This document shows, one piece after another, positions 3,176 through 43,738 of a stretch of 64,000 nucleotides of DNA. The first letter of the stretch is position 1. Each line of letters opens with the position of its first letter. This stretch comes from Lindgomyces ingoldianus (taxonomy: Eukaryota > Ascomycota > Dothideomycetes > Pleosporales > Lindgomycetaceae), in contig NW_022985181.1 of assembly GCF_010093535.1 (NCBI RefSeq), positions 857,333 through 921,332 of the forward strand. Reading direction: 5' to 3'. Below the pieces are notes generated by a model that was not told the DNA's origin, did no database searches, and saw only the letters and a program-made list of their open reading frames with translations. The translations under genes and the position numbers were made by a program.

Positions 3176-3176
3176 A

Positions 3177-3513: not shown

Positions 3514-4180
3514 ATGAAATGGGTTACAGAATGGGTGCTCGCCAATACCCTACCTAAGCCATTACGAAATCACATGGCGCTGTCACTCTCCTCTCTGGTA
3601 ACAAGTCCGAGAGAAGTGCTTGAACCTGGGATTCCGCTGGATCCAAAAGTGTGGGAGAGTCTGGAGTATGTAGCGAGTCGGGCGTTGAATTGGGGGCTCG
3701 TGGGTGTACCGATTTGTGAGTTCCGAATTCCATTTCCCGAAGGTCGCGCATGACACGTCCCAGTACGGCGGACGCCGTATGAAGGCCGGAACGAGAAGTA
3801 TCTGCATCTGTCCATGAATTATTCAAGAGCAATTATGGCGAGCCCGATTATTTCGTTCGTTCAGGATTTTCTCAAGCCAGTATTTGGACCCTTGATTGCT
3901 CGTAAGGGAATCAAGGGCTGTGAAACTTGCATCGATGTGCTGGTCCCATTATTCAAGGGGAGGATTGAAAAGTATCGTAGTAGCTTGGATGCTCCTGCAA
4001 GCTTCCCTTCTCTTTTTACCCTCACGAGAGACCTCATTAGTAATCCTACCATCAGAACGACATCATTCAATCAGTGATTCAAGGATGTTCAAACCCTCCC
4101 AATGCCGCATATATGGATCCCCAACAACTCGCCCGCAGTATCGAAGTCCTAAACTTCAATGCCGTCCCTCCAGCAGGTAT
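3514..4180 (+). pseudogene. Cytochrome P450, front fragment (split by a 38.8-kb insertion)
   Basis: This is the N-terminal to central part of a fungal E-class P450, a heme-thiolate monooxygenase normally anchored in the ER. After an open stretch from 3514, a GT-AG intron (3716-3784, 69 bp) joins a segment reading VGVPI to CRNEKYLHLSMNYSRAIM, the conserved 'CRN' region before helix F. The following segment, with FLKPVFGPLIARKGIKG then QLARSIEVLNFNAVPPAG, matches the helix F-G and I regions. One frame change lies near 4020-4060 and could be a lost codon phase or an intron. The first 100-150 residues (membrane anchor) are not seen upstream. The gene stops at the 8-bp duplication GCAGGTAT (4173-4180), and its reading frame resumes at 43039. 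I infer that it is non-functional. The substrate is unknown. Confidence 0.8.
3716..3784 (+). other. Intron in the P450 front fragment
   Basis: Donor GTGAGT at 3716 and acceptor AG at 3784. Splicing restores a continuous conserved P450 segment across the junction (VPI then CRNEKYL). This suggests the gene was functional before it was broken. Confidence 0.65.
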
Positions 4181-4200
4181 CAGTGTGTCCAACCGTTAGT

Positions 4201-4713
4201 TACGGAGCCTTTTGGAGGCTGTATAGTACAGTTACGGAAGAGGAGGCTGTTACTAACTAACTGTACAGAGGAGATGACGTTAGTGTACAGTTAGGATACA
4301 GTAACTAAAGTATATTAAAGTATTATAAAGTAATTGCGCTAAAGCTAAAGACCATACCTAATTAAAAAGTTATAATACCTCTTATAAGGTCTACTATTAT
4401 TAATCTTACTATTTTAATATACTTTATAAGCTTAGTTAGCTTACTAGTAACAGTGTTATTACATAACTAATTCTTCTATAGTTAAAAAGCCTTTATTATT
4501 AACACTAATAGTTAAAAAATTTTTATTATTATAATAGTCTTTTTAGCTTATAAGAAGCACTACTTACACTTACATAAAGTTACTAAAATTAATAAAAAAT
4601 TAAAAGTAATTTTATAAAAAATAAAGTAGTAAAGTTAACTTTACTACTACTACTACTTAAGTAGCTAAGTAAGCAGCTAATCTTTAGCATACTTATTTTT
4701 TACTAAAAAATTA
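4201..4713. other. hAT element, left internal segment
   Basis: The first 100 bp are un-mutated, with repeated GTACAGTTA motifs. From about 4290 on the sequence becomes strongly AT-rich. No open frame or recognisable protein motif survives. Confidence 0.6.
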
Positions 4714-5925
4714 ACGTACTTTATAGGCAAGTTGCTCACACACCTGAGTCGCTTACTTTTGCTAAGACCCCACCCTAACAAACTCTATTATAGCCTATAA
4801 CAACCCGCTCTAGCACTATATAGTACAGTACAGCCTAGAATATTATTTAGATACTACTTCTGCTTCTTGCTTACATGTTTGCGTGTTATACCTAGTCTAA
4901 TTACACTATCTGCAGCGTCTTTAGAATAGCTTACCTACTTTAGCTTGCACCTGCTTTTTTACTTTCTTTCTATTACTGCGCGCTTTAAACTCCTTTAAAG
5001 CTATTAAGCGCAAGCTTTTCTAAATTATTAAAGTCTTTTTTACTTTAATTTACTTTTTTTTATATAATTTATGTTACATAGCAGCCTTATTAGCTACTTA
5101 AAGCTTAGTAATTTTCTATTACACTAACACTAGCTTATGCGTAATTATTACTACTTTTGTTAAAACCTTTTTAAACACCTTAACTATAAAAGTTAGTAAA
5201 CTATTTATATGCTTTTAAATTTTTATCTTTATAAGCATTAATTATAACTTAAGTTTTAGAGTATTACTTAAAGTTTACAACTACTAGAGCTTATTATATA
5301 TAAGTAGTAGTAGTAATAGAGTGTATAACTTTACATTAAGGCTTATTATAACTTATTATAGGTTAAAAGAAACTAATCTAGCGCCTTAAAACTTTTCTTA
5401 GATATTACTAAAAGTAATTATAGCATTATAAGCTGCTTTAAAGCATAGTAGAAACTTTATTTTTATAATATAAGTAATTTAGTTATGCATAAAGTTTTTA
5501 GCTTAGCACTTATACACTTTTTTTAAAGAAGTAAAATAACCTACATTAAGTAGCTATAAAAGGTGTAATAAGTAAAAAGGTATATAAATAGTAATAATTT
5601 TATTATTTTTATAGTATTACTAAAAATAAAGTAAGTTATAGCTTTTATAGCTGTTAATAACTAGCAGACAGTAGCTACTAACAGTACACTTCTTTATATG
5701 CGCGTTAAAGTGCTTTAACTAGTCTAGACTAAGCTAATTAGTAGTCTAGCTACGCTTAGAGATTATAATAACTTAATTCTAAAGTAGATTTTTTTTTATA
5801 CTAGTTTAAAAAGTAGTTGCTACCTTAGAAAATAATAAAAAGTAGAATAGCTTACTTTTTAGAATTAATGCCCTAGATAGCTGTTGTCTACTCCTAGTTG
5901 CCTAGCTAGACTGCTTTTAGCTATC

Positions 5926-6532
5926 TGTTACAATCCTTACTTCGGGAAAATGGTATTTCTGAAGTACAACGGCCTATATAGAATTAGCGGAGAGGGGATA
6001 AGAACTTAGCTGGATCAGGTGTACAGTCTGTTAAGCAGAGTGAAGGATAGTTGGGATTCAGGGAGGCAGGCTGTGGTTTAGTCCCTATAGCTGTATAGGT
6101 AGCTGGGTTTTTACTAGTTAGGTAGATAAGGGTTAGAGGTATATATGTTGCAAGATATATAAGGCAGCTTAATCCTTTTTAGAAAGGATTTAAGCTTTTT
6201 AGTCTATTGTAAAGAATAAACTAAACATTAATTATAACCTTTAAACTATAGTTAAGATTAAGACTATATACATAGTAATTGCATGTATTGCATGTGTTGC
6301 ATGCGCTGCATGCAACACCTGCATTTACCTGCAATGCCTGCTTTGCCTGCAATACTCTAGTCCCTATTAGACAGTGCATTCTGCTAAGCATTTATCTATA
6401 AGATTGCACTATTTGTCCTCTGTTTAGTTATAGGGTCTGTTAATTGCAGAGTTAACTATTTTCTATCTACTATGCTTAGGGCTATGTGCCATAGCAAGCT
6501 AAGTTATTATAGTCTGTTTGTTAGCTGTAACA
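5926..6532 (-). repeat. gypsy-1 LTR, 3' copy
   Basis: 607 bp, TG...CA. Compared with the other LTR, its outer (left) 150 bp carry fewer C-to-T/G-to-A changes, while its inner end is heavily changed. Confidence 0.92.
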
Positions 6533-6989
6533 CGCAGGCTTCTCTTCTAGTTAGCGTCCTTGCTGTTATATTTTTCCTGTTGCAAGCGTTAGGTTTTCTC
6601 TTTAAGTAGTGTATGTCCTTCTGTAAATGCCTAGCGTATGTTTATTGCTTTTAACTATGCCTTATTAGGTTTCTTATCTTTCTGCTGTTAATTATTGTCT
6701 TTGTACTATTACTTGTCTTAGTCCTTATTGTTGTATAAAAATGCGTCCTTGTAGTCCTTGCTAGTTGCATAGTACGCCTTACGTGATGTCCTTGTTATTA
6801 GATAAGTGCGTAAAGTGTATGCAGAAAAGTAGTTGCTGCAACACTTTTGTTTCTAACGCAGCTTAGAATTGTCTAGAGCGTGAGGAAAAAAGGTTGCGTA
6901 GGGAACTAGAGGCGGCAGCAGAGAAGGAGATAAATAAGAAGGAGAGGGAGATGCAGGAGCAGGCTAAATCCTTAAGGCGTCTTTAGTCC

Positions 6990-9900
6990 TTTGTGGCTTA
7001 GCAGGAATAAGTTTAGAGACAACTAAAGGTGTTAAAGGATTAAAGGGCAAAGTATTTAGAAGGAGACCTCTTATTGCTAGATAAGCTTAAAGCGCTTAAG
7101 GCAGAGGCAGCAGGTCTTCCTCCTCCTTAGCCTGCGTTAAAGGGCTGGGGGCTTCCTACATTGCAGCTATCTAACATTGCTGCAGTTTTGTCTAGTAACA
7201 GTGTTTTCTAGTCTAGGGAGCTTTTACTAGGATAGTTTAATCTAGAAGGCGTAAGTGATATTCCTGTAGCGCCTTCTAGGCGTTTCTTAAGTTTGTAACA
7301 GGCTCCTAGGTGTTTTTATAGGTTAGGTATCCTACCTATTTTACTAGGTAATAATTTCCTTCCTTATCTAAGATCTTTTTAACTTTGTATTTAAGTTCTT
7401 TTTTATTCTATCTTTAAGTTGCTAATAGAACGCTTTTAGGCGCTAGCTCTAGTTTAGAAACGTGGAACTATAGGAAGATTCTTATGTCTTTAGGTAGTTT
7501 AAGCTTACATGCCTCTAGGCAGGTTTAGATAACCTTGTAGGGTCCTATGCGTCTTTTAGCTAGCTTTTGTGCTAGCTAAGGATTTTTAAGGTTTATAGTA
7601 TTTAAATATACATAATTATAGGGATGTATTTCTAGCACTATTTATTAATGTTAATTTGCTAATGCTTCTATAGCTTTTGTTGTAAGTTAAGCTTTTTTAC
7701 CTAATTTCTAATAAATTTCTAGAAGTTATGTTGTCTAGTTTAAGGCTTTTAGTAGGTCTATTAGCTAGGTTCTAGAGAGCTTGTATCTGTAAGGGTAGCT
7801 AAAATTTGCTTTGTACAGGGTTATTTTAGTTAAGGTAGATTATGTAGTGTTAATAGCTAACTGTGCTATTAGCAACTATTTAGGCTAGTCTGTCTGCTTA
7901 TGTAAGATGTATTTTTATAAGTACTTCTCTATTTCTATGTTTATTTGTTCTGTTTGTCTATCTGTCTAAGAGTAATAGGCTGTGGAGAGTTTGTGGGTTA
8001 TTTTAAGGTGTTAGACTACAGTTGTCTAATACTTGCTAGTAAAGAGTTTATCTTTATCTAAGATAATAATTTGCAGGCATTTGTAAGTTGCAAAGAGATT
8101 TTTTTTTAGTTTAAACATAAATTCTTTTGTAGTTATGCTTTTTTCTGTTGCCTATATAAGGATAAATTTAGTAGTTTTGTTAACTATCACTGCAATTGTG
8201 TTGCAAAGCCTTTCTATGCTAGGTTTGCAGGATAGTGGTAGTCCTGTTATAAAGTCTATTGTTATTATAGTCTAGAGTTATTTAGGTGCTATAATTAGCT
8301 AGAGTTGTCTATATAGTTTGTGTCTTTAGGGGTTGTTCTTATTGCACAGATTACATTCTTTATTTTTCTTTAGAGCAATCCTATCCTAGGGTGTCTAAAC
8401 ATTAGGGCCTTATAGTACTCTTTAATAAGGTTTTTCTATTTGTGTTTAGTAATTGTTAGGGAACAGATTAGCCCTTTAGGTTCTAGTCTATTGTATACTA
8501 GACCTTAGTTAGTTTCTTTAAAAATTGCAAATTCTTCTGTGTCTTCTTCTAATTTGTTAAAGTAGTTAAGATGTCTGCTAAGAACATCTGCTTGCTAATT
8601 ACTGCTTTTAGGGATATGCTTAATAACAAAGTTAAACTGTGCTAGCTCTATCGCCTATTATACGTGCATTAGAGAGAGTTTCTTTGTTGTTAGAAAAGTA
8701 ACTAGGTTAGCGTAGTTAGTATAGATAACAAATTATTACTTAAGTCTTTACAGTTTAACTTCTTAATTCCTATAAGCATTAACTATAGCTTTAAGTTCTT
8801 TGTCTAGTATAGTATACTTTTGTTCCGCAGGGGCAAATTTTGCTAAATAGTATGCTATAGGGTGCTAATAGCTATTTTCTTGTTTCTGTAGAAGGGCTGC
8901 CCCTTTAGCTTGTTTTAAGGCGTCTGTGTGTACTTTAGTTTTAAGAGTTAAGTTGTATATTTAGAGGACTAGGTAGCTAGTAATAATTTTTTTTAGTTCT
9001 TTAAAAAATTAGTCTATTTTAGTTATCTACTAGAACTTGTGCAATGCTTTTTCTTTTATTATAGCGTTAGTAAGTAGGAGTGCTATTTTAGAATAATCCT
9101 TAATTATCCTTTGTATATAACCTGTTAGTTTAAGGAATCCTCTAATCTTAGTAATAGATCTAGGTACAGGCTATTTAAGCACTTTAGCTACTTTTTTTAA
9201 GTCTATTTTTATCTAATTCTAGTTTATAATAAATCCTAAATATTTAGTTTCTTGTACATTAAATTTGCATTTTTCTAGTTAAAGGTGTAAGCTGTATTGC
9301 CTAAGGCGCTCTAGTACTAGTTTTACTTTTAATATGTAGTTGTTGCAGCTTTTCTTAGTGTATATTAGTATGTTGTTAAGGTATACTAATACAAATATGT
9401 TAAGGTACAGGTTTAAAGCTGTGTTAATAACTCTTTAGAAGGTTGCAGGTGTGTTAGTAAGCCTAAAGGGCATAATAAGCAGTTTGTATAGTCTTTTAGG
9501 GGTTCTAAAGGCTGTTATCTATTTATTTCCTTGTTTAATTTTTATTTTGTTAAATCTGTCTTAGACGTTAAACTTAGTAAAATGCTTAGTTCCTTTTAGT
9601 TAGTTTATAATGTCCTAGATTATTAGAAGGGGGTACTAGTCTTATATAGTGTTGTTGTTTAGAGTTTAATAGTCTTAATATACCTTTACTTTACTATTTT
9701 TCTTTTTTTATAAAGACTACTGCTAATGCTACAGGGCTGTTGCTTTCTTTAATATGCCCCTGTGATAACATCCTGTCTACGTATTCTTATAGTGCGTCTT
9801 TTTAGGCCTTAGTTAGTAGTTAGAGTTTATAAGCTTTTAGCTAAGGTTTTAGTTTAAGATTAATAGCGTAATCTTATAGCTAATGCAGAGGTAATTCTTC

Positions 9901-11750
9901 TAGGTCTTCTAGGGTTTTAAACATGTCTTTATACTCCTTATATTTTTCTAGTAGGTTTCTTGTTTTGTAGGCAATTCTATAGATTCCTATCTAGTTAAGG
10001 TCTTATTCTTTTTAGAATTCCTTAAAGAACAATTCCTCTAATTTTTTTTTTATTAAGCAGACTGCTTAGGCTTTTAGTTTTTAGCAAAGGAACTTTTTTA
10101 GTTTTCCTTTTTTAGGGAAGTATCTGCTTCCTTCCTTTGCTTATTAGTAGAAGGTGTAGGAATTGTTATAGTAGGCTAACTATGTTATATAGGCGTAGTC
10201 TTATTTTGTTACTAGGGTTATAGTCTGCTAGTTAATTATTAGGTTGTGTTTGTAAAGCTAGTTATATCTAAGTATTACTTAGTACTTTCTTCTTAGTAGT
10301 AAGATGTTAAAAGATATCTAGTTACTAGTTCCTTTAGTGTCTATAATAAGTTTATAAGTTTTAAGCTGTATCTATCCTACTCTATATTTAATTAATAAGG
10401 CGTCTGCTAGGGTTACTTTAAAGGGTTTTTCTTTGCTTTTAAAGAGTATTTGTTTTTAATTAACCTATGTAGAGTTAATTACTGTAAAGGTATAACTACT
10501 GTTTATTAGCGCAAGGCCTGTCTATTCTTGTTCTAGGCAGGAGAGAGTTATCTCTGTAGTTAGGCTTCTGCCTAGTCCTTGTCCTACAGTAACAAGGGTG
10601 TAGAGTTTATAGAGAACTTCTAGGTAGTCTATCTTGTTGTCTTTCTCTACTTTAAGAGCTTTCTCTTAATAGCTTTTAATTTAGTTAGTTTGTATTTTGT
10701 ATTTCTAATAGCCTTATATTATGCATTCTGCTACAGTGCAGTGTTAGTCTTCTACTTTGTAGTAATACAGCATTTAGTTGTTTTGTTAATAGGCTCTTTA
10801 TTAGAAGTAGTAAAACGTGTAATTTGCTTAGTTTTTACATTTTATCTAGAGTTTCTATTTGTGCTTAGTTCTAATGTTGCAGTAGGCACACTAAGGCATT
10901 TTGCAAGTTAATGCTATTTTAGGGAGTGTGTTGTTTATAAGCTTACTTGCCTAAATTCTATACAGCTACTAGCTAGCTTTATGTTTAGTTAGCTAGTGTT
11001 TTAGGCAATACTTGTTAACGCATAGGTACTAGTTATAAAGACAGTTTCTAAGGTTATTTTAGACTAGTATTAGCTAAACTTGCGTCTATCTTAGGTATTC
11101 CTTTGTTTATACTATTTATAAAGGGTAGCTTTAGTATGTGCATTAGAATTTATTATGTCTCTAGCTTCTACATAGAATGCAGTATCTATGTTGTTAGCAA
11201 GTTTCTAGGTCTTTTTATGTAATTGCTAGTGCTAGGGGGGGTGTGTTAGCTCTCTAATTGCAAGGTTTTAAAGTTATTAAAGGGGTGCATTGCTAAGTAG
11301 GACCTCTTTCTTTGTTTAAAATTTTCTAGAACATTTTCTATTATTCCTTGTTGTTTAGCACAGCGTAGTAAGTTTAAGCAATTTCCTTAATTATGCTGTA
11401 GGTGTCTGCATTATTATTAATATGTACCTTATACATTATTTTTTTGCAATTTTATAGGTTATAGGTGTTACTGTATTTCTAGCAGTTACTGTAGTTAAAT
11501 TAATACTATAGTTCTTAGGTAGAGATTCCTGTTATTAGTTATCTTAGAGAGAATAGTTTCTTCCCTTCTCTTATGTTTGCAACATATGTTGTTACTTATG
11601 TGTAGCTTTACTATTTTTTATAGACAGCTGCTTGTTCTAGTGCCTTAAATATGTTATTATTATTTTAAACTTTAACCTTCTAGTATTCTATTAGGCATCT
11701 ATTAGATTTGTAATTGCCTCTGCATTACTAGCAGAGGTTCTTGTTTAGTC
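6990..11750 (-). pseudogene. gypsy-1 pol (reverse transcriptase, RNase H, integrase), degenerate
   Basis: On the minus strand the RT active-site motif is at 9360-9386 and reads VYLNNILIY; the family motif is YxDD, so both aspartates are now asparagine, a change RIP makes (GAC to AAC). The integrase zinc-binding CxxC is at 8344-8355 (KECNLCNKNN). The first catalytic Asp region DFITGLP is at 8236-8256. A downstream stretch near 8060-8130 reads IILDKDKLFTSKY, resembling the second catalytic region. Many TAG/TAA codons replace Trp and Gln. Exact borders are approximate. Confidence 0.85.
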
Positions 11751-11799
11751 TGTCTAGGATTTCTAGTCCTGTTAGACCCTGCTCTATATGTATTGCTTT

Positions 11800-12880
11800 T
11801 ATAGTTAGTCCTTTATCTTTATTCTCTTAGTTAACAGAGTCTAGGCATTCTCTTCTATAATGTCCTACTTTTTTACAGTTAAGGCACGCTCTTTCCTTAA
11901 GCTATTTCTATTGTTTGTTACTTAGTAGCAGCTTTTTGCTATTTTAGAACTTGCTTTTTTTCTTAGTTAAGCCCTGTGTATGTTTAGCATAGCTAAGATC
12001 TATTAGTTTGCTATTAGACTGTTAAGTCTCCCTCTTCCTCTAGAATGCTTCTAGTTTCTAGGGCGTTATGCTAGGGCGCTTCTTATAAAGACGTTCCTAA
12101 TGTTAGTTATTATACATAGTTGCCTATTTTACATATTCTTTAAATTTATCTAGTTTGCTATAGTGCATAAATTTGTTTTTAATTGCGTTAGATAGTCTAT
12201 TATAGAACATTCTTCTAACAGCTGCTTTGTTAGTTTATCTGCTAATAGCTAATTATTTGCAGAAGCGTGCTGTATATAATTAGACAGTGCCCTTTTCTTA
12301 TTATAGGGTGTCTATTCTGTTAACTGCCTTTTCCTTTTAATTAGCTTAGCTATAAATTGTTGTAAGAGCTTGCTTAAAGGCATCTATACTTTAGAAAATT
12401 TCTTAAGTGTAAATAGAGGGAATTTCTCTAGTTACTTTATGCTTTATTTAATTATCTGCGTGTAGTTAGAACTATATAGCTAGGGGTCCTTCTAGGTAAA
12501 GTCCTATCTATAAGATTATTTCTTTATCTGTTTAAAAGGCGCTCTTGTTGTACTGCATGTACAGGTAGCATTAAGTAAAGAATAGCTTAAAGTCCTTAGC
12601 TATGCTGTTAAAGAATTTAGGTAGGGCTAGGCGTAGTAACTTTTTTAACTTAATGCTAGTTTTGTCTTTAGCAGCGTTGCAGAGCTTAGCAACTTCTAGA
12701 TAGAGGGTGTGTAGTTGTTAGACGTGTAGTTATTGTTAAAGCTAGGCTTTAAGTGCTTCTATTTCTTAATAAAGATATTGTATTTGTTAACTGTGTTCCT
12801 CCTTATTCCTAGATAGGGTTTTGCCAGTGCTGGCTGCACTAGCTCCTGTTATACTAATATTAAGAGAAGTGTAAGGTGCT
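11800..12880 (-). pseudogene. gypsy-1 gag, degenerate, with CCHC zinc knuckle
   Basis: The retained knuckle at 11845-11886 (minus strand) reads CLNCKKVGHYRREC, a perfect C-x2-C-x4-H-x4-C of retrotransposon nucleocapsid. Upstream capsid sequence is too mutated to delimit. Start and end are approximate. Confidence 0.75.
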
Positions 12881-12905
12881 ATACTTTTAGAGAGGTAGTA
12901 ATTAA

Positions 12906-13512
12906 TGTTACAATTCTTACTTTAGAAAAATAGTATTTCTAAAGTACAACAGCCTATATAGAATTAGCGGAGAGGGGATAAGAACTTAGCTAGATTAGGT
13001 GTACAGTCTGTTAAGCAGAGTAAAGGATAGTTAGGATTTAAAGAGGCAGGCTGTAGTTTGGTCCCTATAGCTGTATAGGTAGCTAGGTTTTTACTAGTTA
13101 GGTAGACAAGGGTTAGAGGTATATATATTGCAAGATATACAAGGCAGCTTAATCCTCTTTAGAAAGGATTTAAGCTTCTTAGTCTATTATAAAGAATAAA
13201 CTAAATGTTAATTACAACTTTTAAACTATAGTTAAGATTAAGACTATATACATAGTAATTGCATGTATTGCATGTGTTGCATGCGCTGCATGCGACACCT
13301 GCATTTACCTGCAATGCCTGCTTTGCCTGCAATGCTCTAGTCCCTATTAGACAGTGCATTCTGCTAAGCATTTATCTATAAGATTGCACTATTTGTCCTC
13401 TGTTCAGTCATAGGGTCCGTTGATCGCGGGGTTAACTGTTTTCCATCCACTGTGCTTAGGGCTGTGTGCCATAGCGAGCTGAGTCATTATAGTCTGTTCG
13501 TTGGCCGTAACA
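12906..13512 (-). repeat. gypsy-1 LTR, 5' copy
   Basis: 607 bp, TG...CA, followed by the CTATC duplication. The outer (right) 100 bp keep CpG and CpA that are lost in the matching part of the other LTR. Confidence 0.92.
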
Positions 13513-14169
13513 CTATCCTTATCTCTCTAAATCTATAATAACTGCTCTAGTAAATATCTAGCTTATTATAAACCTTATCTTATTAAAGTTGTACATGTTA
13601 TTATTCTAAATGCTATACTTAGCTTTAATATTTTTTATAAAGTTAAACTAGCTTTAAATTACTATAAGATTTTTATAAAAAGCTTTTTTATAGTTATACT
13701 TACACTTAAACTTTACTTTAAGCTTTAAGTAATACTTAATAAACATATTAGGCTAGTTTATGCTAATATAGCCTATATTATACTTAGCATGTAAAGAATT
13801 AGCTATATTAGCTATAGCTGCTAGCTAGGGGAAAATCCTTACACATTTAGCTTAAGTATGTGCTAAATAATTACCTACTTTTTATTATTATCTAGCTTTT
13901 ATAAGTTTGCTATATAATTAGCTTAGAAAGGTTATCTAGTGCGTTAGTTACTTATTATTTTTAAAAAACTCTATAAATAGCTGCAGTGTGTTGCTTAAAA
14001 AGTGTTACATTTTATTTAAAAGCTTAAAGTGTAAGCTACATTTAATGTTCTTTTAACATGTTTAAGTAGTATTATTAGAAATGCATTAGTGTAAAAAAAG
14101 TAGTGTAGTAGGGTCTTAGTAAAAGTAAGCAACTTAGGTGTGTAAGCAACTCGCCTATAAAGTACATTA

Positions 14170-15288
14170 AAGTAAAAGTTTAACTTATTAACTTTTTACT
14201 TTCTTTTTAAGCTACAACTTTTGTTATTATAGAGAATAGTAAGGTTAACTAAAAAGGCCTTTTTAAGGCGCTTATTATGTAGGTTGCTGTAAGCTACTAA
14301 AAGCTTTCTTTATAATATCTTTAGTAATACTACCTTTTTTTTTCTTAAAGATCTTTAAGTAGTGTGTATAAATCTTTTAAATAAACAACTTTATATGCTT
14401 ATACTAGAATAGGTAGTGTTTCTAGTAGTCTTTAAACTAAAAAAAGTAAAAAGATAAGTTAAAAATAGTTACTATATAGTAGTAAAAGATTTTTAGCTTT
14501 AAAATAAAAGTTTTCTAGTACACAGTAAGCTTCTTAATGCTAAAAGTAATGCTGTTTTTAAAGTAGTTGCTATAGTGCTTATAAAATAAGCACTTTTTTT
14601 ATACTTTAAGCTTGTTCTTAATTACCTATAAGTATATAATTATTTACTGTAAGCTACTGTAGCCTAATTTACTAGTGCTGCTTTTAAAGTGTTTAGTTAT
14701 TTTATAAAAAATCTTTAAAAAGTTTTTTATATGCTTTACTTTTACTTATTTATTATTAGTAAGGCTGTTAAGTAGAGAATTATAACTATTATTTTTAATA
14801 TTATTATTAACTTTATTAGTAAGGCCTATGTTATAGCGCTTAGATTAAATAAAGCGCTAAATAAGCTTTTTAAGTTTAAAATAATATAAAATTATAAAAT
14901 ACATAAAATGCTACTATACACTGCTATCTTATAGTAGATTTAGTATACTAAAGCTCTAAAAGATATCTTTCTTGCTTAGTATAGTTATAATAGCTATAAA
15001 GCTATTATAATACTTATTTAAGTAAAGAACTAAGTTATAAAAGTTATAAAGCTTTTTAACAACTTTATACTATTAATAAAGCTTAAATTAATTCTAAAAA
15101 GCTATATTAGCTAGCTCTTATTTCTATAAACTTATATTATTACTATAAATAACTGCCTTAATAATAATTTAGATAGTATAGCTAGCGTAGTGTATTTAGT
15201 TGTTACTACTAAAGTTAAAGTTTATATATAAGTTAAGATTATTAATAAGCTAAATATTATTATTTAATATATTATTTACTATAAAGTA
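14170..15288. other. hAT element, internal AT-rich segment
   Basis: Lies between two family A insertions. Heavy TpA bias, no open frame, no recognisable motif. It is probably part of the hAT coding region, by position only. Confidence 0.45.
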
Positions 15289-17154: not shown

Positions 17155-17156
17155 TA

Positions 17157-19696: not shown

Positions 19697-19697
19697 T

Positions 19698-22928: not shown

Positions 22929-22930
22929 TA

Positions 22931-32930: not shown

Positions 32931-33162
32931 CTATTGTCTAGCTGCTAGGTTGTACAGCTTTAATAGCTTTAGTGTGCGCCTTATACTATCTCCTTCTTAC
33001 TTTATATAGTAGCAGAGCTTACTATATAATGTAAAGAATTAATCTACTATTATCTAGCTACTAAGTTATATAGCTTTAATAGCTTTAGTGTGTGTTTTAC
33101 ACTATCTTCTTTTTACTTTATATAGTAGTAGAGCTTACTATATAATATAAAAAATTAATCTA
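32931..33162. repeat. 116-bp tandem duplication in the copia-1 leader
   Basis: Two units (32931-33046 and 33047-33162) differ mainly by C-to-T or G-to-A. By orientation they lie between the copia-1 5' LTR and gag, so this is untranslated leader DNA. Confidence 0.75.
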
Positions 33163-33262
33163 CTATTCTAAAAAATAGGTAACTAAATAAAGTACCTTAT
33201 AAAGTGTAAGTGCTTTGTTGTTACTCTTTTTAAACAATAAGTAATAAAATAAAGTACTTTAT

Positions 33263-33879
33263 TGTTACAATCCTTGCTTCGTGGAAGCACTCGGGTCTTA
33301 TGATATTCCAAGGGGGGGAGTTGGACAGGTAGTAGAGGCCAACTAGTAGGGTGTACAGTCCTACGTACAGGCTATTAGGCTATTAGAGGAGAGTAGGGTG
33401 ACTAGATTGTGGTTTGCCCTATGTGCAGCAGTAGGGAGGCTAGGGTTAAACAGTCCTGTTAGACAGGATTAGAGGTATATATAGTGTAAGATATATAAAT
33501 AGTATTATAGCTCTTTAAAAAGCTAAATGCTACTTAGTTTATATAAAAAATAGACTAAATGTTAAACACACTTTTTAAAGGTTATTTAATATAGGAACTA
33601 TATACATGTGCTAGGTGTGCTAAGACAAGCTTAAGTAAGTTCCTTAAGTTTAGCTATGCTAGCTGCACTGCTAACTTCTTTAGACTTACTAAACTTACTA
33701 AGGCTTACTTTAGGGCTTGTATCCTGCCTTCTTATTAGATAACGCATTCCTCTGTTATTGCAGGCAGCTGCGCTGCCTCTGTGTCCTCTAACTAGTTAAT
33801 AAGCAGGCCCTGTCCTAATCTAGCTAGATTGTGGAGCACTGCTAGTAGAGTTACGCTAGTCTAACTGTAGACTGTAACA
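33263..33879 (-). repeat. gypsy-2 LTR, 3' copy (617 bp)
   Basis: The outer (left) 80 bp retain CTTCGTGGAAGCACTCGG, whereas the inner LTR shows T/A at the same sites. Confidence 0.92.
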
Positions 33880-34439
33880 CGCTGCCCCTTCTCTCTAGCA
33901 GCGTTCTTACTGCTCTGCTTACATAACTATGTTAGTAAAAGTTTATTTATAAAGTAAGTGCTTACCTACTAGAAGGCATTTTTAACATCTATTTTTTTAT
34001 ACTAAATAGCTTGTTAGTCTTGTTTATTCTGCTATCTTTATATTACTCTTTATTTTAATTCTTTTTACTAGATAAAGATAAGGCCCTACAGCACTTACTA
34101 ACCTTTAGGGTTATTATATATGTTAATGTTGTCCTTAGATAGATATATTAAGTGTATAAAAAAAATAATAAGTGTAATACTTTTATGTCTAACACTATAT
34201 AAAAGCGCTTAAAAAAAAAGAGAGAAAGACTTTTTTATTCTACTAAAGCTTCTTAAGCTAGAGACTATGCGCTGTTAGATAAATAACTAGTTTAAAATTA
34301 TAAGCAACTTTGCTTATAAAAGAAGATGTTATAACAGAGTTAAAAGACTTTAGAGGTAAAAGATAAGAAGTGTTCTAAATAAGATTATATCTAAAAATTA
34401 TTAAATTTACTAGAGGCTTATTATGCAAAGTACTTAAAA

Positions 34440-37400
34440 GAAGACCTTTCTTTTTTAGACAAGATAAAAGCTTTTAAGGCTAAAGTAAAGGGCTATTTTT
34501 TTTCTTAGCCTTTATTAGCTAGGACTTGTCTCTAAAGGCTGCTGCTATCTAGTAATAACATAGCTGTTCTTTTTAATATAGGTGCTTTATTACTTAGCTA
34601 GTTTCTTTTAGACAAGCCTAAAGGTACCTTTATACTAACAGCTGCGCATTCCTTCGGTTCTTAGCTAGTTTTTATGTGTTTTTACTAGTAAGCTACTTTT
34701 TTTATTTTACTAAAAATTCTTTTTAGTTTTTTTAATTACTAATAATGTGTTTAACTTTATATTCTGTTTTCTTATCTTTTTATCTTTATATAGATAAAAG
34801 AATTTCTTTAAGTGCCTTTTCTAATCTAAAGATATAGAACTATAGATGTATCTTTATATGCAAGGGAAGCTTAAGCTTATAGTTGTCTTATTAGGTTTAT
34901 AAGACTTTATATAGTTTTTTTTTTTTTTTGCTAGCTTTCTAGAGGGTCTAGGTATCTTAAGGTTTTTTATGTTAAAGTACACATAATCTTCTAGGTAGAC
35001 TTTTAGTCCTAGTTACTATAATTTATTTACTTATTTCTTTATTATTTCTTTGCTAGACCTAGCTTCTATAGCTAACCTTTTATATATCTGCTATAGGTTT
35101 GTTAGCTAATCTATTAATTTCTATAAGTTTATAAGTTAGTTTTCTTATAGCGTAAAGTAAGAGTTGTACCTAAAGTTAGCTTTATATAGTGTTTTCTTTA
35201 TTATAGCTAATTCTATGTTGTTAATAGCTAGCTGTGCTATTAAAAGCTATGCTACTTAATTATTTTATGTATAAAATATATACTTTTTTAGATACTTTTT
35301 TATTTCTGCATTTACTCTTTTAGTTTAACTGTCTGTTTATAGGTAATAAGCAGTTAATAGCTTATATGTTATACTAAAGTGCCTTATTACTACTTTTTAA
35401 AAGCTGCTAGTAAACAGTTTATCTTAGTTAAAAATAATAATTTTAAAGTATTTATATACTAATATTATATTTTATTTTAATTTATAAATAAATTTTTTAG
35501 CTATTATTGTTTTTTTTAAAGGCTAAGTATATAAATATTTAGTAGTTTTATTTAGAGCTACTGTAATTATGTTGCACATTCTGTCTATTCTTAGTTCTTT
35601 AGATAGAGGTAATTCTGTAATAAAGTCTATTATAATTATTATTTATAGTAGCTTTAGTGCTTTAATTAGTTAAAAGTACCTATAAGCCTTATGCCTTTAT
35701 AAGTTATTTCTATTATAGGTGTTACATTCTCTAAGTACTTCTATACACAGCTGCTTAACTTTTAGTATTTATTATAGTATAGCAACTCTTAACTTCTTTT
35801 AAAGGGTGCCTATTTCTAGGTGTTTAAACATTAGAAAGTTATAATATTTTTAGATTAAATTTTTTTATTTTTGTTTATTTATAGTAAGCATGTAGAGTTC
35901 TTTTATAAGTTAAGGCTTGTTATAGATCTATTCTTTATTAGTTTTCTTAAAAAGTGTAAACTTTTTAGTTTTTTTTTTTTCTTTATTAAAGTAATCTAGC
36001 CTTTAGCTAAGAGCGTTAGCCTGCTAATTCTGCGTCCCTAAGACATGCTTAATAATGCAGTTAAACTGCGCAAGCTCTATTGCCTATTTTATGTGCATTA
36101 GTAACAGTTTTTTTACTGTTAAAAATGTAACTAAATTTATGTAGTCTGTTATAATGTAGAAGGGTTTTGCTATCCTGTGTAACTCTGTAGCTTATACTTT
36201 TACAGCATTTAATATTGCTTTTAATTCTTTATTAGGTATACTATAGCCTGCCTTAGGTCCTAAGAACTTAGCAGAGTAGTATGCTACTAGTTGCTATTTT
36301 TTGTTATCCTGTTTTTAATAAAGCGCGGCTCTACTAGCTCCTAGGGATGCGTCTGTATAGATCTTAGTATCTAACTATAGGTTGTACATTTTTAGCACTA
36401 GTTTAGCTGTTATAGCTTACTTTAAGGCTATAAATGCTTTGTTTATTTCTAAGGTCTAAACAAATTTTACTATAGCCTGTTCCTTAGTTATAGCATTTGT
36501 TAATAGTATAGTAATTTTAGAGTAGTTTCTAATTATTTGTCTAACATAGCTTAATAGTCTTAGAAATCCTTTTACTTCTTTAACTATTATAGGCTCTAGC
36601 TACTTAAGTACCTTCTATACTTTAGCTAGGTTAATTTTTATTTCTTTTTTATTAATTATAAATCCTAGATATTCTATTTCTGTAATGTAAAATTTACATT
36701 TAAAGAGCTATAGGTAGAGTCTGTACTTTTTAAGCTGTTCTAAGACTTTTTGTACCTTCTGTACATAGTCTTCTAGAGTATCTTTTAAGTAGATAAGGAC
36801 GTTATCTAGATATACTAGAGTAAAGACATTAAGGTATAAGTTAAGGGCTATATTAATAATTTACTAGAATGTTGCTAGGGCATTAGTTAGGCTAAACAGC
36901 ATTACTAGTAGTTTATAAAGTCTTTACAAGGTTTTAAACACTGTAAGCTACTTATCTTTTTCTTTTATTTTTATCTTATTAAATCTATCTTATATGTTAA
37001 ACTTTGTAAAGTACTAGGTTTCTTTTAATTAGTTTATAATGTCTTATATAATTAGTAAAGGGAATTAGTTTTAAATTATGTTGTTATTTAAAGTTCTATA
37101 GTTCTAATAAACTTAGATTTTTTTTTCTTTCTTTTTTGCAAAAACCACAGCTAAGGCAACTAGGCTATAGCTTTTCTAGATGTGGCTTTAGGCTAGCATT
37201 TAGTTAACATATTCCTGTAAAGCCTTTTTTTATGTCCTTGTTAGAGGACAAAGCTTATAAGTTTTTAGGTTATAATCTTTTATTAAATTAATTACATAAT
37301 TCTAAGGCTAGTGTAGTAGTAGCTCTTTTAGGTCTTTTAGTGTTTTAAACATATCCTTATAATCTTTATATTTAGCTAGAATGCTGCTTTCTTTTTAGAT

Positions 37401-38700
37401 TTAGAAAACACTAAACTATTCTATATCTTTATTAGCCTTAATTTTTTTATAAGAAACTTTTTTAAGTTTTTTTTTATTACTTTTATTACCTCGGCTTTTA
37501 GCTCTTAGCAGGGGAACTTTTAGAGTTTCCTTTTCTTAGGGTAGTAACTGCTACCCTATTTTACTTACTTATAGACTAGGCATTAGTTATTATAGCATGC
37601 AGACTAGGTTATGCGCGCGTAGTTATTAGGAGTTTCTATAGTTATAGTTCTCTAGTTAATTGCAGGATTATGTGTTCTAAGCTAGTTATAGCCTAAAATT
37701 ATGTTATACTTGCCTTTTAGTTAAAGTATGTTTATAGACCTCTAGTCTCTTATATTAGAAGTCTTAAGGTTCTTTTTATAAGTTTCTAGGTTAATCTATC
37801 CTCTGCTGTACTTAATTAATAATGTATTAGTAAGAGTTACCTTAAATAAGTTCTTTTTTACACAGAATAGTATGCTTTATTTATTTACTTAATCTTTGTC
37901 TATTATAGTAAAGGTGCAACTGCTGTCTATAAAGGCTAGTCTTAGTTATTCTTTATATGTAAAGGTAGTTATTAGGCTCTATTCTACCTTTTATTCTACT
38001 ATAATTACTGCTAATATGTTATATTTAACTTCTTTATTAAAAAGGAAATAAAGGTTAATGTCCTATAAGTTATTATTAAACTTATTTTTTTTTTCTTTAT
38101 AAATTTAATGTTCTTAATTATAACAACTAGCTGCTTTACATTTATAATCTTTAACTAGGTAATGTAATGTTAGGTAGTCTTCTTTTCTTACTGCTTTTTA
38201 CTAAAAGTAGTAGAACCTGCAACTATCTTGTTTCTTACACACTGCCTACCTCTCTTGCTTGTGTAGAGGGGCTGTCTAGCAAGTGTAATAGTTTATAGTT
38301 TTATAGGCTAAGGCTGTCCCTTACTATAGGCAACTATTATAGTTCTTCTTTTATGTAGGCTACTAGCCTGTTTAGTGCTTATTGTTCTAATGTTTTACAC
38401 AGTAACACTGTGTACATTAGTACTAGGGGTATAGACAGTTGTTAGGTCTATGTAACATGCTAAAAAGGCTCTTTTAAGTTTACTAAGAGTACTTTTATGT
38501 TTATACTATCTAAACAAGGTGCTTCTTTTATTAGTAATTATTAGTGCTATAAGTTTTATTTCTGTAGAGTGTACACTAGCTATAGCTTTATTGCATTATT
38601 AAAGCCTTTCTGCTAATTACAAGGCTTAGAAGCAGTGTCTTAGGCTTCTTAGGTACTAGCTTTAAGACTTTAAACCTAGCAGGTCTACCTAGTCTTTCTA
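34440..38700 (-). pseudogene. gypsy-2 pol, degenerate
   Basis: The RT motif at 36789-36812 (minus) reads YLDNVLIY, so the second active-site Asp is now Asn. Preceding residues LYLNVFTLV match gypsy-1 in place. Integrase sequence is expected toward 35.0-35.7 kb, but its residues could not be fixed. Frames are broken by many TAG/TAA. Borders are approximate. Confidence 0.75.
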
Positions 38701-38734
38701 GTTTCTAATCTTAGATTTTTATAAAAAACTACTA

Positions 38735-39834
38735 ACGTACTTTATAGGCGAGTTGCTCACACACCTAAGTCGCTTACTTTTGCCAAGACCCTACTAAACT
38801 ACTCTTCCTACACTAATGCATTCCCCACAACACTACTTAGACGCGCTAAAAGAACATTAGATACAGCTTACGCTCTAAGCTTTTAAATAAAACATAAAAC
38901 TTTTAAAGAAATATGCTATAGCTATGTGCAGAGTTCTATAAAAAATAATAAATAACTACAGCACTAGATAACCTTTATAAGCTAATTCTACAGCTAAATT
39001 ATAGAGGCTAGGCAATAAAAAGGAGCAGGTAATTGTTAAGACTATACTTAAGCTATATACGCAAGGAATTTCCCTTTAGATAGCATTTATAGCTAATATA
39101 GCTAATTCTTTACGCGCTAAGCGTAATCTAGGCTATGTTTACATAAACTAGCCTAGTACGTTTATAAAGCGTTATTTAGAGCTTAAAGTAACATTTAAGC
39201 GTAAGTACAACTATAAGAGAGCCCTCTGTAAGAGTCCTAGGGTAATTTAGGGCAGGTTTAGCCTTGTAGAGAATATTAAAGCTAAGTATAGCATCTAGGA
39301 TAATAACACGTATAACTTTAGTAAGATAGAGTTTATAATTAGCTAAATATCTCTTAACTATACTTGCGCTTAAAACTTTACTTTAAGCTTTAAATAACGC
39401 TTTATAAACATACTAGGCTAGTTTATGTAAACATAGCCTAGATTACGCTTAGCGCGTAAAGAATTAGCTATATTAGCTATAAATGCTATCTAAGAGAAAA
39501 TTCCTTGCGCATATAGCTTAAGTATAGTCTTAACAATCACCTGCTCCTTTTTATTGCCTAGCCTTTATAATTTAGCTGTAGAATTAGCTTATAAAGGTTA
39601 TCTAGCGCTGTAGTTATTTATTATCTTTTATAAAACTCTGCACATAGCTATAGCATATTTCTTTAAGAGTTTTATGTCTTATTTAAAAGCTTAGAGCGTA
39701 AGCTGTATCTAACGTTTTTTTAGCGCGTCTAAGTAGTGTTATAGGGAATGCATTAGTGTAGGAAGGGTAGTTTAGTAGGGTCTTAGCAAAAGTAAGCAAC
39801 TCAGGTGTGTGAGCAACTCGCCTATAAAGTACGT
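38735..39834. mobile_element. Foldback element of family A, copy 3 (1100 bp)
   Basis: TA-flanked, same length and arms as copy 2. Nested in gypsy-2 between pol and gag, which makes it one of the deepest and latest insertions of the left nest. Confidence 0.85.
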
Positions 39835-40299
39835 TATTACTTTTTTTTATCTATAATGTTATATTTAACTTTAGCTATGCGCTATATAATGTTAAATGTA
39901 AGGTAGTTATTACTAATATTTATTTAGTAAAGCATAACTATGTAATAACTTAGGTAGTTATGTTATAGACTACATTTCTAGCATTTGCATTTCTAGAACT
40001 GTCTAGAGAGCTCTCTTACTAAAGTACTAGGGGTCTAGTCTTAGAAAGGGAACTGTTTTTCTTTTTTCTAGACATTTATAATGTATCCTTAGATCTAAGT
40101 TTCTTCTTTATATCTCTTAAAAATTATAAGGTCCTGCAACACTATGTCTAGTCTACTAAAGTCTTAAATAACTACCTTCTAATATACTTTAAGGCAGTTA
40201 TTTAAAAAATAGTTTTCTTTATATTACTAGTAAAGTCTATTCTTTAATCTTTCTAATATTTTCTTATCTATAAGGCTGTATTTAGTAGTAATAGCTTTT

Positions 40300-41480
40300 A
40301 TTGTTGTAGTAGTATTTTTATTCTCCTCTTTTTAGAAGTCTAGGCAGTTTTAGCAGAAATGTCCTACTTTTTTATAGTTTAGGCAGGCCTTATCTTCTAA
40401 CTACTTTTATTATTCTTTTATTAAAGGCAGCCTATTATGTCTTAGGACTTAGTTTTTCTTTAAAGAGAGGCTTTATATATGTTTTGTGTAACTAAGGTCT
40501 ATTAGTTTTTTATTATACTATAAAGTTTTTTTTTTCTTTAGAACAAACTCTAGCTTCTAGAGAGTTCCCTTTTATTACTTTTCTCTTTTACGCTTTTTAT
40601 AATAGTTGTTATAAGTTATTACTTTTATAATGTAGTTGTCTAGTCTAGTTAGCTTGTTAACATGCATAAATTTATTTTTTACTTTATTATTTAGCCTATT
40701 ATAAAACATATAGCATAGGGCCTTCTAGTTGTTCTATCTACAGATAGCTAGTTATTTTCTAAAGTGTGCTGCGTAGTTTTAGACTATGCTGTTGCTCTGC
40801 CTTATAGTGTTTAGTTTATTAGCAGTAATTTTTTTTTTGTCTAGAGTTTTATAGATAGCTGTTAAGGCTACTTTAAAGTTTTTAACATTACTAAACACTT
40901 TCTTTATCTTAAAGTTAAGTGCTGCTTTATTAGCTCTATAATCTATTTAATTATCTATGTGTAGTTAAAACTAGATTATAAAAAGGCCTTTTAAGTGTAA
41001 TCTTATCTAGGATATTATTTTTATGTTAGTTTAAAATGCTCTTTTATTATATTACATGTAAAAGTAGCATTTTATAAAAAATAGGTAAAGGTTCTTTAGC
41101 AATTCTTTAAAAGGCTTTAAAAGGGCTAGTTTTAAAGTCTTTTTTACTATAACACTTACTTTCTTAGTAGAAATGTTCTAGATTTTTGCTAGCTTTACTT
41201 ATAGTTTATGTATTTAATAAGCTTAGTAGCTTTCTAAAAGCTTAAAAGTTTAAAAAAGTTTTATAACTTTATTACTTTTTAGTAAAAGTTAGTAATTTTT
41301 TATTTAAGTTTTAGTAGTTTACTAACCTTATTGCTAATCTGCTAGAGCTTTTTAATGTTGTCCTAAATTACATTAATCTGTTCTACTAGGACAGCTTTAC
41401 TTTAAGTAGGGACTTTTATAGATCCTAATAGCGCAGTATAGGCTATGTTAGAATCTAGGTTGTGTTAAAAGGTATCTATA
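40300..41480 (-). pseudogene. gypsy-2 gag, degenerate
   Basis: The zinc knuckle at 40344-40385 (minus) reads CLNYKKVGHFC-stop-NC, i.e. a C-x2-C-x4-H-x4-C box whose second Cys is now Tyr (TGT to TAT), plus a stop. The upstream capsid part is unreadable. Confidence 0.7.
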
Positions 41481-41504
41481 CTTTTTAAAAAAGATAGTGT
41501 TTAA

Positions 41505-42121
41505 TGTTATAATCTTTGCTTTATAAAAGCACTTAGGTCTTATAATATTCTAAAAGGGGGAGTTAGACAGGTAGTAGAGGCTAACTAGTAGGGTGTACAG
41601 TCCTACGTACAGGCTATTAGGCTATTAGAGGAGAGTAGGGTGACTAGATCATAGTTTGCCCTATATGCGGCAGTAGAAAGGCTAGGGTTAAACAGTCCTG
41701 TTAGACAGAATTAGAGGTATATATAGTGTAAGATATATAAATAGTATTATAGCTTTTTAGAAAGCTAAATGCTACTTAGTTTATATAAAAAATAGACTAA
41801 ACATTAAACACACCTTCTAAAAGTTGTTTAATGTAGGAACTATATACATGTGCTAGGTGTGCTAAGACAAGCTTAAGTAAGTTCCCTAAGTTTAGCTATG
41901 CTAGCTGCGCTACTAACTTCTTTAGACTTACTAAACTTGCTAAGGCTTACTCTAGGGCTTGTGTCCTGCCTTCCTATTAGATGACGCATTCCTCTGTTAT
42001 CGCGGGCAGCTGCGCTGCCTCTGTGTCCTCCGACTGGTCGATAAGCGGGCCCTGTCCCAATCCAGCTAGATTGTGGAGCACTGCTGGTGGAGTTACGCTG
42101 GTCCAACCGTAGACCGTAACA
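41505..42121 (-). repeat. gypsy-2 LTR, 5' copy (617 bp)
   Basis: The outer (right) 130 bp are almost unmutated (GCGGGCAGCTGCGCTGCC and similar), while its inner end is RIP-changed. Confidence 0.92.
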
Positions 42122-42190
42122 TTTATAAAGTATAAGTACTTTATTATTACTCTTACTAGTTTATAGTTAATTAAATTAACTACTAATTAG

Positions 42191-42470
42191 TGTTAAATAG
42201 GCTCTAATAGCTAGCTGCTTATAGTATAAGCACTTAAGTAGTAAAAGTAAGAGTAGTGTATAGTATACATAGTGTATAAAGTAGGTAAAGTAAAGGCAAC
42301 ATGTTTTTAGTTCTATTACTCTTATTTTTCCTTTATATAGAGGAAAAGGGGGATATTTAGATGTTTGTGCACAGAGGTTCGCGCACAAGCATTATGTGAC
42401 ATAGATACGTGGTCCTGCTTGTGCGCGATCGCTTGTATCCAGACCGTGACGCTGCTGCTGCGTACAGACA
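42191..42470 (-). repeat. copia-1 LTR, 5' copy (280 bp)
   Basis: Its right half is CpG-rich and un-mutated, its left half RIP-changed. Followed by the GTAGG duplication. Confidence 0.9.
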
Positions 42471-42475
42471 GTAGG

Positions 42476-43010
42476 CATTATTTAAGTGCTTCTTAGCCTA
42501 GGTATTTTATATATACTTTAAAAAAGTTACTTTACATAAAAATAGCATAAATAGGCTAGGTAAAGCTATGTAGGCCTTTTCTAAGTGTTAAGATAAAGCA
42601 GCATAATATATCTAAGTAGTAAAACAGCTAGATAAAGTATATAAAAATAAGGCTTATAAAAATAAAGCCTATAAAGTAGTAGCATGCTAAAATAACTATG
42701 TTATTAATTAAAATAAAAATAAAAATATTATAGTAGGTAAAAAAATAATATAAATAGCATAGTTACTAAATTTATTAAAAAATTACTAATAAAATAAGTA
42801 ATAATAGCATTCTTTACATTAATTTCTAAACATAAGCTTTTTAGCTTTTAGTAACCTACCTTTAACTACCTAAAACTACTAAAAATTTTATATAACTACT
42901 ATAAACAGTTAGTACAGCAGCCTTATGTATAGTACAGTATACTAAGTAGACGCCCTGTACATACGTACGTGACCAAAATCAGTGTACTGCAGTACTGTAC
43001 TATTAGGTGT
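42476..43010. other. hAT element, right internal segment
   Basis: AT-rich and lysine-codon-rich in places to about 42900, then about 100 bp of normal composition with GTAC-containing subterminal motifs up to the terminal repeat. No gene recognised. Confidence 0.55.
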
Positions 43011-43038
43011 ACTAACGGTTGGACACACTGGCAGGTAT

Positions 43039-43738
43039 GGCGGTTGCATGGTTGCTCCTGAATCTCCACAGCACGGCCGTAGAAGATTCGGAGAAATTCG
43101 TCCAGCAAATGCGTCAAGAATGCAACCAAGTGCTGTAGGAAACTCTCAAAGGATACTAGACTCGAGACGCTGTATCTAAACTGACGTTGGTAGATTCCGC
43201 AATGGGAGTCTATGCGCCATTCGGATTTTGGTGCGTTGGCACTTCCGCGTCGTGTTAGTCTTGAGCTTTGCATCTTGAACAGAAAGGGGAGGAAGACTCG
43301 CGATATGATACATAGGTCTCGGCACAAACTGGCACCCCCATCTCGGGAATCAAAATACCTCAAGGTATCCATATGGAAGTCCCATTCACAACATCCACAT
43401 CGACGCCGACTTCTACCCCAATCCAACATCTTTCCAACCCTTTCGATTCGCTTCCGCTTCCATCACCAATATCCCTTCCGAAGGCCTCCGCTCATCTTCC
43501 AAATCTAATGTTAACACCCCCAAGCCGCCCGTTACATGGATGAAACTTTCTCGGATTCGGGTATAGGAAAAACGGTTGCCCTAGCAGGTTCTTTCAAGCC
43601 TGTTTGATGAAGACTATAATGGCTTATATCCTCCACCATTTCGAGGTGGAGCATATCCCAGAAAGGTCGAAAGATGTATTGGTGATGGAGGTTCAAATTA
43701 CTGGCGATGATGCCACTATTCGAAATAGTAGGTCGTGA
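43039..43738 (+). pseudogene. Cytochrome P450, rear fragment (heme-binding half)
   Basis: Continues the front fragment in frame after the 8-bp duplication (PAG then MAVAWLLLNLHSTAVEDSE, helix I-J). QQMRQECNQVL is followed by in-frame TAG codons at 43136 and 43157 (TGG-to-TAG likely at the second). The helix K ExxR is ESMR at 43206-43217, reached only after a frameshift at about 43203. GTPISGIKIPQGIHMEVP and, after another frameshift, HIDADFYPNPTSFQPFRF (PERF-type motif, about 43398-43452) follow. The heme loop reads FGYRKNGCPSRFF with the Cys ligand at 43577-43579, but the family's FxxGxxxCxG glycines are replaced (G to R, G to S). It ends LHHFEVEHIPERSKDVLVME and TGA at 43736-43738. Pseudogene; the pathway is unknown. 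Confidence 0.85.

Follow-up and report, generated by a model that had tools for sequence, protein, structure and literature searches.

Fungal DNA transposons of the hAT superfamily include Restless, Tfo1 and others; the terminal inverted repeats (TIRs) of hAT elements start with the motif CAGNG. Here we consider a 64,000-nt stretch of contig NW_022985181.1 of Lindgomyces ingoldianus (the window), in which a cytochrome P450 gene is split by a hAT element that itself contains other transposons. The genome searched comprised 68.4 Mb in 99 contigs. Like other fungal hAT elements, this one has an 8-bp target duplication and short TIRs starting with CAGTG; relatives in the same genome have a PF05699 transposase. 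Differences are that none of the eight family members with listed open reading frames (ORFs) retains an intact frame for the transposase (the longest, in L058, is 119 aa), and that four first-order insertions interrupt the copy in the window. We propose, with a probability of about 0.92, that a hAT-family transposon of approximately 3.1 kb entered the helix-I coding region of the P450 once, duplicating 8 bp, and that repeat-induced point mutation (RIP) changed its body. The hAT would next have been entered by two Tc1/mariner-like elements, one unclassified stretch and a long terminal repeat (LTR) element, which in their turn took up more LTR elements as well as small DNA elements, bringing the total to 38.85 kb. 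RIP would have stopped at the element borders without entering the P450; the LTR elements would have kept their outer ~100 bp free of mutations, and the hAT ends would have changed little.

The closest descriptions of RIP, cited here from the passages available to us, are as follows. In Neurospora, mutation is limited to the extent of shared homology, and a figure legend points out that, in one construct, RIP spares a distal part of a reference sequence; these passages state no general edge zone (PMC4858203). De novo RIP in Zymoseptoria tritici mutates transposable elements without leaking into the flanks, and the most distal windows of LTR elements have most of the mutations (PMC10294615), the opposite of the situation here, where the outer 100 bp have no changes. 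The lichen fungus Cladonia rangiformis has a sharp border between gene space and RIP-mutated transposable elements, as does our locus, and two of its DNA transposon families, of ~730 bp, mostly have high GC content, for which the authors suggest small size as a possible reason (PMC12542154). On the other hand, the passages of that report contain neither an unmutated edge zone nor its use for ordering insertions.

A preliminary description of the window, made from sequence alone, took the coding fragments on the two sides of the insertion for adjacent parts of one P450 in a continuous frame. Indeed, the left fragment closes with the codons GCA GGT (..NFNAVPPAG), the right one starts with GCA GGT ATG GCG (AGMAVAW..), and the phase is identical. 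The protein search with the right fragment, in which stop codons were written as X, produced 21 proteins with E <= 0.001 (275 candidates), all of them with PF00067 and with 31-45% identity to the query. The top-scoring homologue comes from a metagenome-assembled genome of a lichen fungus (Pyrenula), the next one from Dirinaria; several Fusarium homologues bear the name ent-kaurene oxidase, and all homologues with an organism name are fungal. A profile built solely from these 21 proteins aligned with the left fragment at positions 169-308 (75.6 bits, the best of 2000 shuffles being 3.2 bits) and with the right fragment at positions 313-510 (193.7 bits). Since the fragments occupy adjoining positions on one profile derived from homologues of the right fragment alone, they are, to judge from these alignments, adjoining parts of one P450. 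A check for their falling in different P450 families was run, and the one profile covers both. Two results weigh against this assignment: the left fragment alone found no homologue among 527 candidates from a collection of 5.8 billion proteins, and none of five single P450 pieces, the left fragment included, had a P450 match in Pfam. A PDB search with the left fragment found nothing.

The preliminary description placed the beginning of the P450 at 3514. This has to be corrected, as an upstream exon remnant that it had missed matches profile positions 102-163 (Table 1). Profile positions 1-101 were not found in a search of window positions 1-4180, and the first 243 residues of P0004, used as a query for the missing 5' part, matched seven places in the genome, none of them on the contig of the window (C20). 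The two in-frame TAG codons, the frameshifts and the replaced haem-loop glycines reported for the right fragment are all present; comparison with the homologue profile gives the latter as G>R and G>S, so the haem-binding loop is not intact, with its Cys retained and two Gly replaced by Arg and Ser. By these lesions the split gene is a pseudogene of the P450 family. An intron probably accounts for the TGA at 3751 (a GTGAGT was recognised by eye at 3715), which is thus no clear sign of decay. Read by eye, three of the lesions belong to the TGG-to-TAG type, namely the second TAG and the two haem-loop replacements.

The insertion is flanked by the 8-bp duplication GCAGGTAT and bounded by perfect 20-bp inverted repeats, CAGTGTGTCCAACCGTTAGT at 4181-4200 and reversed at 43011-43030, both as described before. 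The first 10 bases of the TIR occur nowhere else in the window. With at most two mismatches allowed, the genome contains 61 forward and 62 reverse TIR matches and no match to the pattern read backwards. Seventeen of the 20 family loci fetched have both exact TIRs, and 15 of these 17 are flanked by identical octamers; in L053 the 8-bp duplication was recognised through flank comparison. CAGTG opens the TIR at 23 of the 24 ends inspected; only L014, the left end of the L053 copy, differs and reads CAGTA. Three copies are uninterrupted, L053 and L054 (3,115 bp each) and L056 (3,129 bp), and each can be aligned with the window over its full length, as five collinear blocks. By this alignment the inserted element is about 3.1 kb long, and the remaining ~35.7 kb of the 38.85 kb are nested insertions. 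Other copies have grown too: there are TIR pairs of 22.8 kb (C5) and 10.3 kb (C14), each with matching octamers; in a 14.7-kb pair on C4 the octamers are not an exact match. The minus strand of the 3.1-kb copies contains a transposase remnant that matches one ORF of L073 with E 1.6e-40 and a second one with E 4.4e-16, the latter having a PF05699 domain (7.9e-20). One PF05699 match (E 6.8e-4) lies between two TIRs at C14:324997-325152. Two points count against the hAT assignment and its boundaries: the 8 bp flanking the bounded copies L059 and L061 differ, and the transposase remnant itself has no Pfam match. Nevertheless, the duplication, TIRs, frame, profile and five collinear blocks together uphold the earlier claim that one hAT-type insertion split the P450 and later grew to 38.85 kb.

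Mutation of the repeats was analysed in five hAT copies and in 13 LTR pairs. The latter are the three pairs of the nest and ten from elsewhere in the genome (L081-L100, LTR-A family), picked among the matches listed by orientation and a spacing of ~7 kb, with other spacings (e.g. on C30 and C49) left out. LTR-A and LTR-C start alike, so the 13 pairs represent two families. The hAT copies differ by 216-355 transitions and 1-12 transversions per pair (10 pairs), the LTRs by 36-57 transitions and 0 transversions per pair (another register gave one transversion for LTR-C). The composite RIP index is 1.4-2.0 in the five hAT blocks versus approximately -0.7 in both P450 pieces; in eight comparison P450 loci of the genome it is -0.05 to -0.68. 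C-to-T and G-to-A changes thus affect repeats and not single-copy DNA, and the P450 flanks are unaffected. From this pattern the process may be named RIP, and presumably it is RIP proper, that is, premeiotic. Two loci of the genome match the DNA methylase family PF00145.

The context was derived from the LTR pairs, in which the spared copy supplies the ancestral base. Y-C-R (Y, pyrimidine; R, purine) is hot, CpA and CpG being mutated alike after a pyrimidine: CCA 76/85, CCG 78/80, TCA 47/57, TCG 51/52. The cold contexts are ACA (34/147), GCA (6/52), ACG (16/65) and GCG (14/54). Conversion by dinucleotide in the 13 pairs is 159/251 for CG, 163/341 for CA, 23/330 for CC and 11/346 for CT, and the preference of the Neurospora type for CpA over other dinucleotides is not seen in them; the context here is YCR, in Neurospora CpA (PMC10787394, from the passages available). 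Four hAT body stretches retain no hot sites (0 of 604 YCR+YTR). In the P450 about half of the YCR+YTR sites are hot right up to the duplication, 24/47 in the last 200 bp and 23/48 in the first 200 bp. RIP seems to have halted at the element borders and not to have entered the P450.

The preliminary description let the decay of the P450 follow the insertion. This is not supported: the flanks are free of bulk RIP. As about half of the YCR+YTR sites of the P450 are still hot, its decay is not bulk RIP leakage, and leakage was rejected as the main cause (RIP index about -0.7, hot sites kept), despite the three lesions of the TGG-to-TAG type. One possibility is that the gene had become a pseudogene before the hAT element arrived, in which case the insertion did not kill it. 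The gene has frameshifts and stops, its profile positions 1-101 were not found, and the DNA just below ~3000 lacks RIP hot sites, as mutated repeats do. As positions 1-101 were not found and 2600-2999 contains no hot sites, the 5' end was probably lost to another repeat. Nothing decisive speaks against such an order, except that the insertion alone would inactivate the gene; we consider it a possibility to be reckoned with, at somewhat less than even odds. It looks as though the left block of the window (1-3158) has truncated the P450 at its 5' end, and the DNA on both sides is very poor in hot sites (fraction 0.02 in 1-3158 and 0.06 in 47301-64000).

Another possibility is that the hAT copy was inactivated by RIP before it entered the P450 and was mobilised in trans. 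Of 57 stops in the L054 transposase remnant, 46 are stops in all five copies. With L068 as outgroup, 8 of 248 cold sites were converted in all five copies, versus 0.09 expected if the copies were independent; four other outgroups gave 3, 2, 5 and 6 fully shared cold sites versus at most 0.08 expected. On the other hand, many stops are at hot sites that saturate independently, conversion in all five copies being 33/45 versus 29 expected with L068, 26/27 versus 26 with L067 and 25/26 versus 25 with L070. L065 as outgroup has only seven hot sites, of which four were converted in all five copies versus 1.4 expected. The cold sites are graded, 125/42/30/25/18/8 being converted in 0-5 copies (L068), a series that differing site rates could give as well. 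Aligned Trp codons of the outgroup, not chosen on stops, became stops in all five copies in 14 of 19 cases, in some copies in 2 and in none in 3. Since TGG codons lie on the hot CCA site, shared stops are not decisive. On balance, entry of a copy already dead is unlikely, if slightly less so in view of the excess of fully shared cold sites.

The distribution of changes within repeats is not uniform. RIP-type changes in the three pairs from the nest keep away from the outermost part of the LTR element. The outermost 100 bp of the 13 pairs contain no RIP-type changes, as against 356 in the identical sequence where the partner LTR has it on the inner side. The change nearest to the outer edge lies at 106-480 bp (26 of 26 edges, median ~200), in the inner copy at 4-17 bp. 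Both LTRs are normally identical at the time of element insertion, and thus the asymmetry is positional. Comparison of paired LTRs is blind to changes common to both; however, the LTR elements in the window retain 3-15 hot sites in each outer 100 bp, which argues that such changes are not general. In the hAT copies (5 copies, 10 pairs) the outer 50 bp of the two ends have 4 and 0 transitions and the following 50 bp have 10 and 22, versus 45 per 50 bp in the middle. Sparing of element ends by RIP would explain the perfect TIRs.

Selection for mobility, or bound proteins, could also keep ends unmutated irrespective of the edge position. Mobility does require an intact hAT TIR, and our pattern search tolerated at most two mismatches. 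However, identical LTR sequence is spared where outermost and mutated where inner, in both LTRs (0 vs 356), a result that selection on a fixed sequence cannot yield, and this explanation is very improbable.

Edge position thus being preferred, one may suggest that mutation of a cytosine depends on homology extending ~100 bp to either side of it. In its absolute form the rule would be a blind zone of RIP: any cytosine less than ~100 bp inside the border of a repeat would be left untouched by RIP, in every transposon class, probably through a need for ~100 bp of paired homology on both sides. Changes at the ends of DNA transposons would then be ordinary mutations, or their flanks would themselves be repeated. 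Several observations weigh against so strict a rule. Sparing in the hAT copies is partial, and TIR changes are found in 2 of 12 left ends inspected (0 of 12 right ends). Mutual comparison of three mariner-like copies revealed no clear sparing (transitions per 50 bp from the ends 4, 10 and 16, 12; middle 11.9), perhaps because some of their flanks are repeats themselves. Because of the partial sparing in hAT copies and its lack of evidence in mariner-like ones, the absolute blind zone is held less likely, its chances being about even. Among the titles and abstract openings listed in our limited search of the literature on RIP, none reports edge sparing, which is no proof of its being unpublished. 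The edge rule would thus be a property of RIP for which such a search found no description, the split gene alone being of a known kind.

The size class of 657-bp hAT derivatives includes at least 14 TIR pairs, for example L067 (C4:1382494-1383150). The body of L067 retains RIP hot sites, with a fraction of 0.24 versus 0.00-0.03 in four 3.1-kb copies; this fits the expectation if edges are spared. Two other short derivatives, L066 and L071, contain runs of N, of 185 and 300 bases.

The edge rule can be used to order the insertions, on the premise that at a junction a host mutated before the insertion shows no spared zone and the insert does. At all 18 interior junctions tested the 100 bp on the host side have 0 hot sites. 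On the insert sides of the same junctions, at least one hot site is present in 16 of 18 cases and at least three in 14 of 18; for random 100-bp stretches of the nest the corresponding values are 22% and 8%. The inserts seem to have landed in already mutated DNA. As the hAT side lacks hot sites at the nested junctions, the hAT blocks were probably mutated before the nested insertions, and the contrast between host and insert sides independently supports the order hAT, then the first-order insertions N1-N4, then the inner elements. However, two insert sides have no hot site (N3 at its left end, the 27187-28291 element at its right end) and two more of the 18 are weakly spared, with one site each, which weighs against a uniform rule. 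The window hAT copy has 9-12 transversions in ~3.08 kb relative to other copies, and the LTR pairs have none or almost none, which points to the same order. The earlier statement that the insertion dates the start of the nest can be retained as a relative order, given the lack of hot sites on the hAT side, and not beyond that. A nested insertion could have occurred in the donor copy prior to its jump into the P450.

A giant hAT-like element of ~39 kb that carried the interior as cargo and moved as one unit is scarcely credible. The TIRs and the 8-bp duplication do enclose the entire 38.85 kb, and the 22.8-kb TIR pair on C5 has matching octamers as well. However, the interior contains five collinear blocks of the 3.1-kb element, three of the four insertions separating them have recognisable ends and duplications, and the three 3.1-kb copies compared lack these insertions. 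Unrelated P450 fragments, or hAT ends from two insertions joined by rearrangement, are most improbable: the left fragment alone found no homologue, but the adjoining profile positions, the same 8-bp duplication, the same frame and the five hAT blocks in order contradict both.

The split gene alone represents ordinary genome decay; the edge rule does not. How RIP recognises repeats without recombination, and what determines its borders, is an open question in the field, and a zone of ~100 bp without mutations at 26 of 26 LTR-element edges tested is a direct constraint on the mechanism. Edge sparing could account for transposon ends outliving a defence that ruins transposon genes. It also cautions against LTR divergence as a clock for fungal LTR elements: the 13 pairs differ by ~6-19% with no or almost no transversions. 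If the blind zone is true, transposon ends would be nearly immune and elements with dead genes could remain mobile in trans; short elements would largely escape RIP; and the zone surviving on one side of a junction would date nested insertions, providing a purely sequence-based stratigraphy of nests.

Table 1. Features of the P450 locus and the transposon nest (window coordinates; the strand of a hAT block is that of the transposase remnant)
Feature	Position	Strand	Evidence and remarks
Upstream P450 exon remnant	3159..3344	+	Profile 102-163; hmmsearch, X-masked frames, i-E (independent E-value) 4.1e-9
P450 left fragment	3514..4180	+	Profile 169-308 in its second part; probable intron ~3715-3785; one frameshift near 4035
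Target site duplication GCAGGTAT, left	4173..4180	.	Sequence
hAT block 1 (element 1-~533)	4181..4713	-	92-94% to L053, L054, L056; opens with TIR 4181-4200
N1, Tc1/mariner-like	4714..14167	.	Ends ACGTACTTTATAGGC.. and TA duplication; split by LTR-A
LTR-A inside N1	5926..13512	+	LTRs ~608 bp; 47 transitions, 0 transversions; CTATC on both flanks (by eye)
hAT block 2 (element ~534-1660)	14168..15288	-	Alignment to 3.1-kb copies
N2, 1,866-bp Tc1/mariner-like	15289..17154	.	Ends and TA duplication
hAT block 3 (element 1659-1934)	17155..17430	-	Alignment to 3.1-kb copies
N3, unclassified 2.6-kb insertion	17431..20060	.	Gap between hAT blocks; tandem repeat inside
hAT block 4 (element 1931-2545)	20061..20674	-	Alignment to 3.1-kb copies
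N4 = LTR-B with further insertions	20675..42470	.	TG..CA, GTAGG duplication; LTRs 20675-20958, 42190-42470
Inverted pair, 1,845-bp arms, inside LTR-B	25053..32797	.	Encloses 1.1-kb element 27187-28291
LTR-C inside LTR-B	33263..42121	+	TTTAT flanks (by eye); holds 1.1-kb element 38733-39836
hAT block 5 (element ~2541-3115)	42471..43030	-	Alignment to 3.1-kb copies; closes with TIR 43011-43030
Target site duplication GCAGGTAT, right	43031..43038	.	Sequence
P450 right fragment	43031..43738	+	Profile 313-510; lesions: two TAGs in frame, frameshifts, G>R and G>S in the haem loop

The ends ACGTACTTTATAGGC are common to N1 and N2, which are classified as Tc1/mariner-like solely from these ends and the TA duplications. 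The 27187-28291 element has mariner-like ends. LTR-A has paired LTRs with TG..CA and a 5-bp duplication (by eye), as expected of an LTR retrotransposon; in its heavily mutated interior (6534-12905, three plus-strand frames with stops as X) no Pfam families were found. The search for RNA families in the window found none. The tandem repeat of N3 has a 10-bp unit (TACAGTAAAT-like) and occupies 18640-18930. The hAT copy L058 contains, at element positions ~1774-2189, a different insertion (TGTCAGAT..CTGACA) a few bases from the N3 site of the window copy; a shared older insertion was considered and rejected, as the insert ends differ. The nest contains further repeats, e.g. at 22.9-24.0 kb.

Next to the P450, two overlapping ORFs on the minus strand (43862-44799) match the fungal rhodopsin domain PF20684 with E 4.3e-22 and 7.8e-5, the latter just below the curated cut-off, and possibly represent one interrupted gene.

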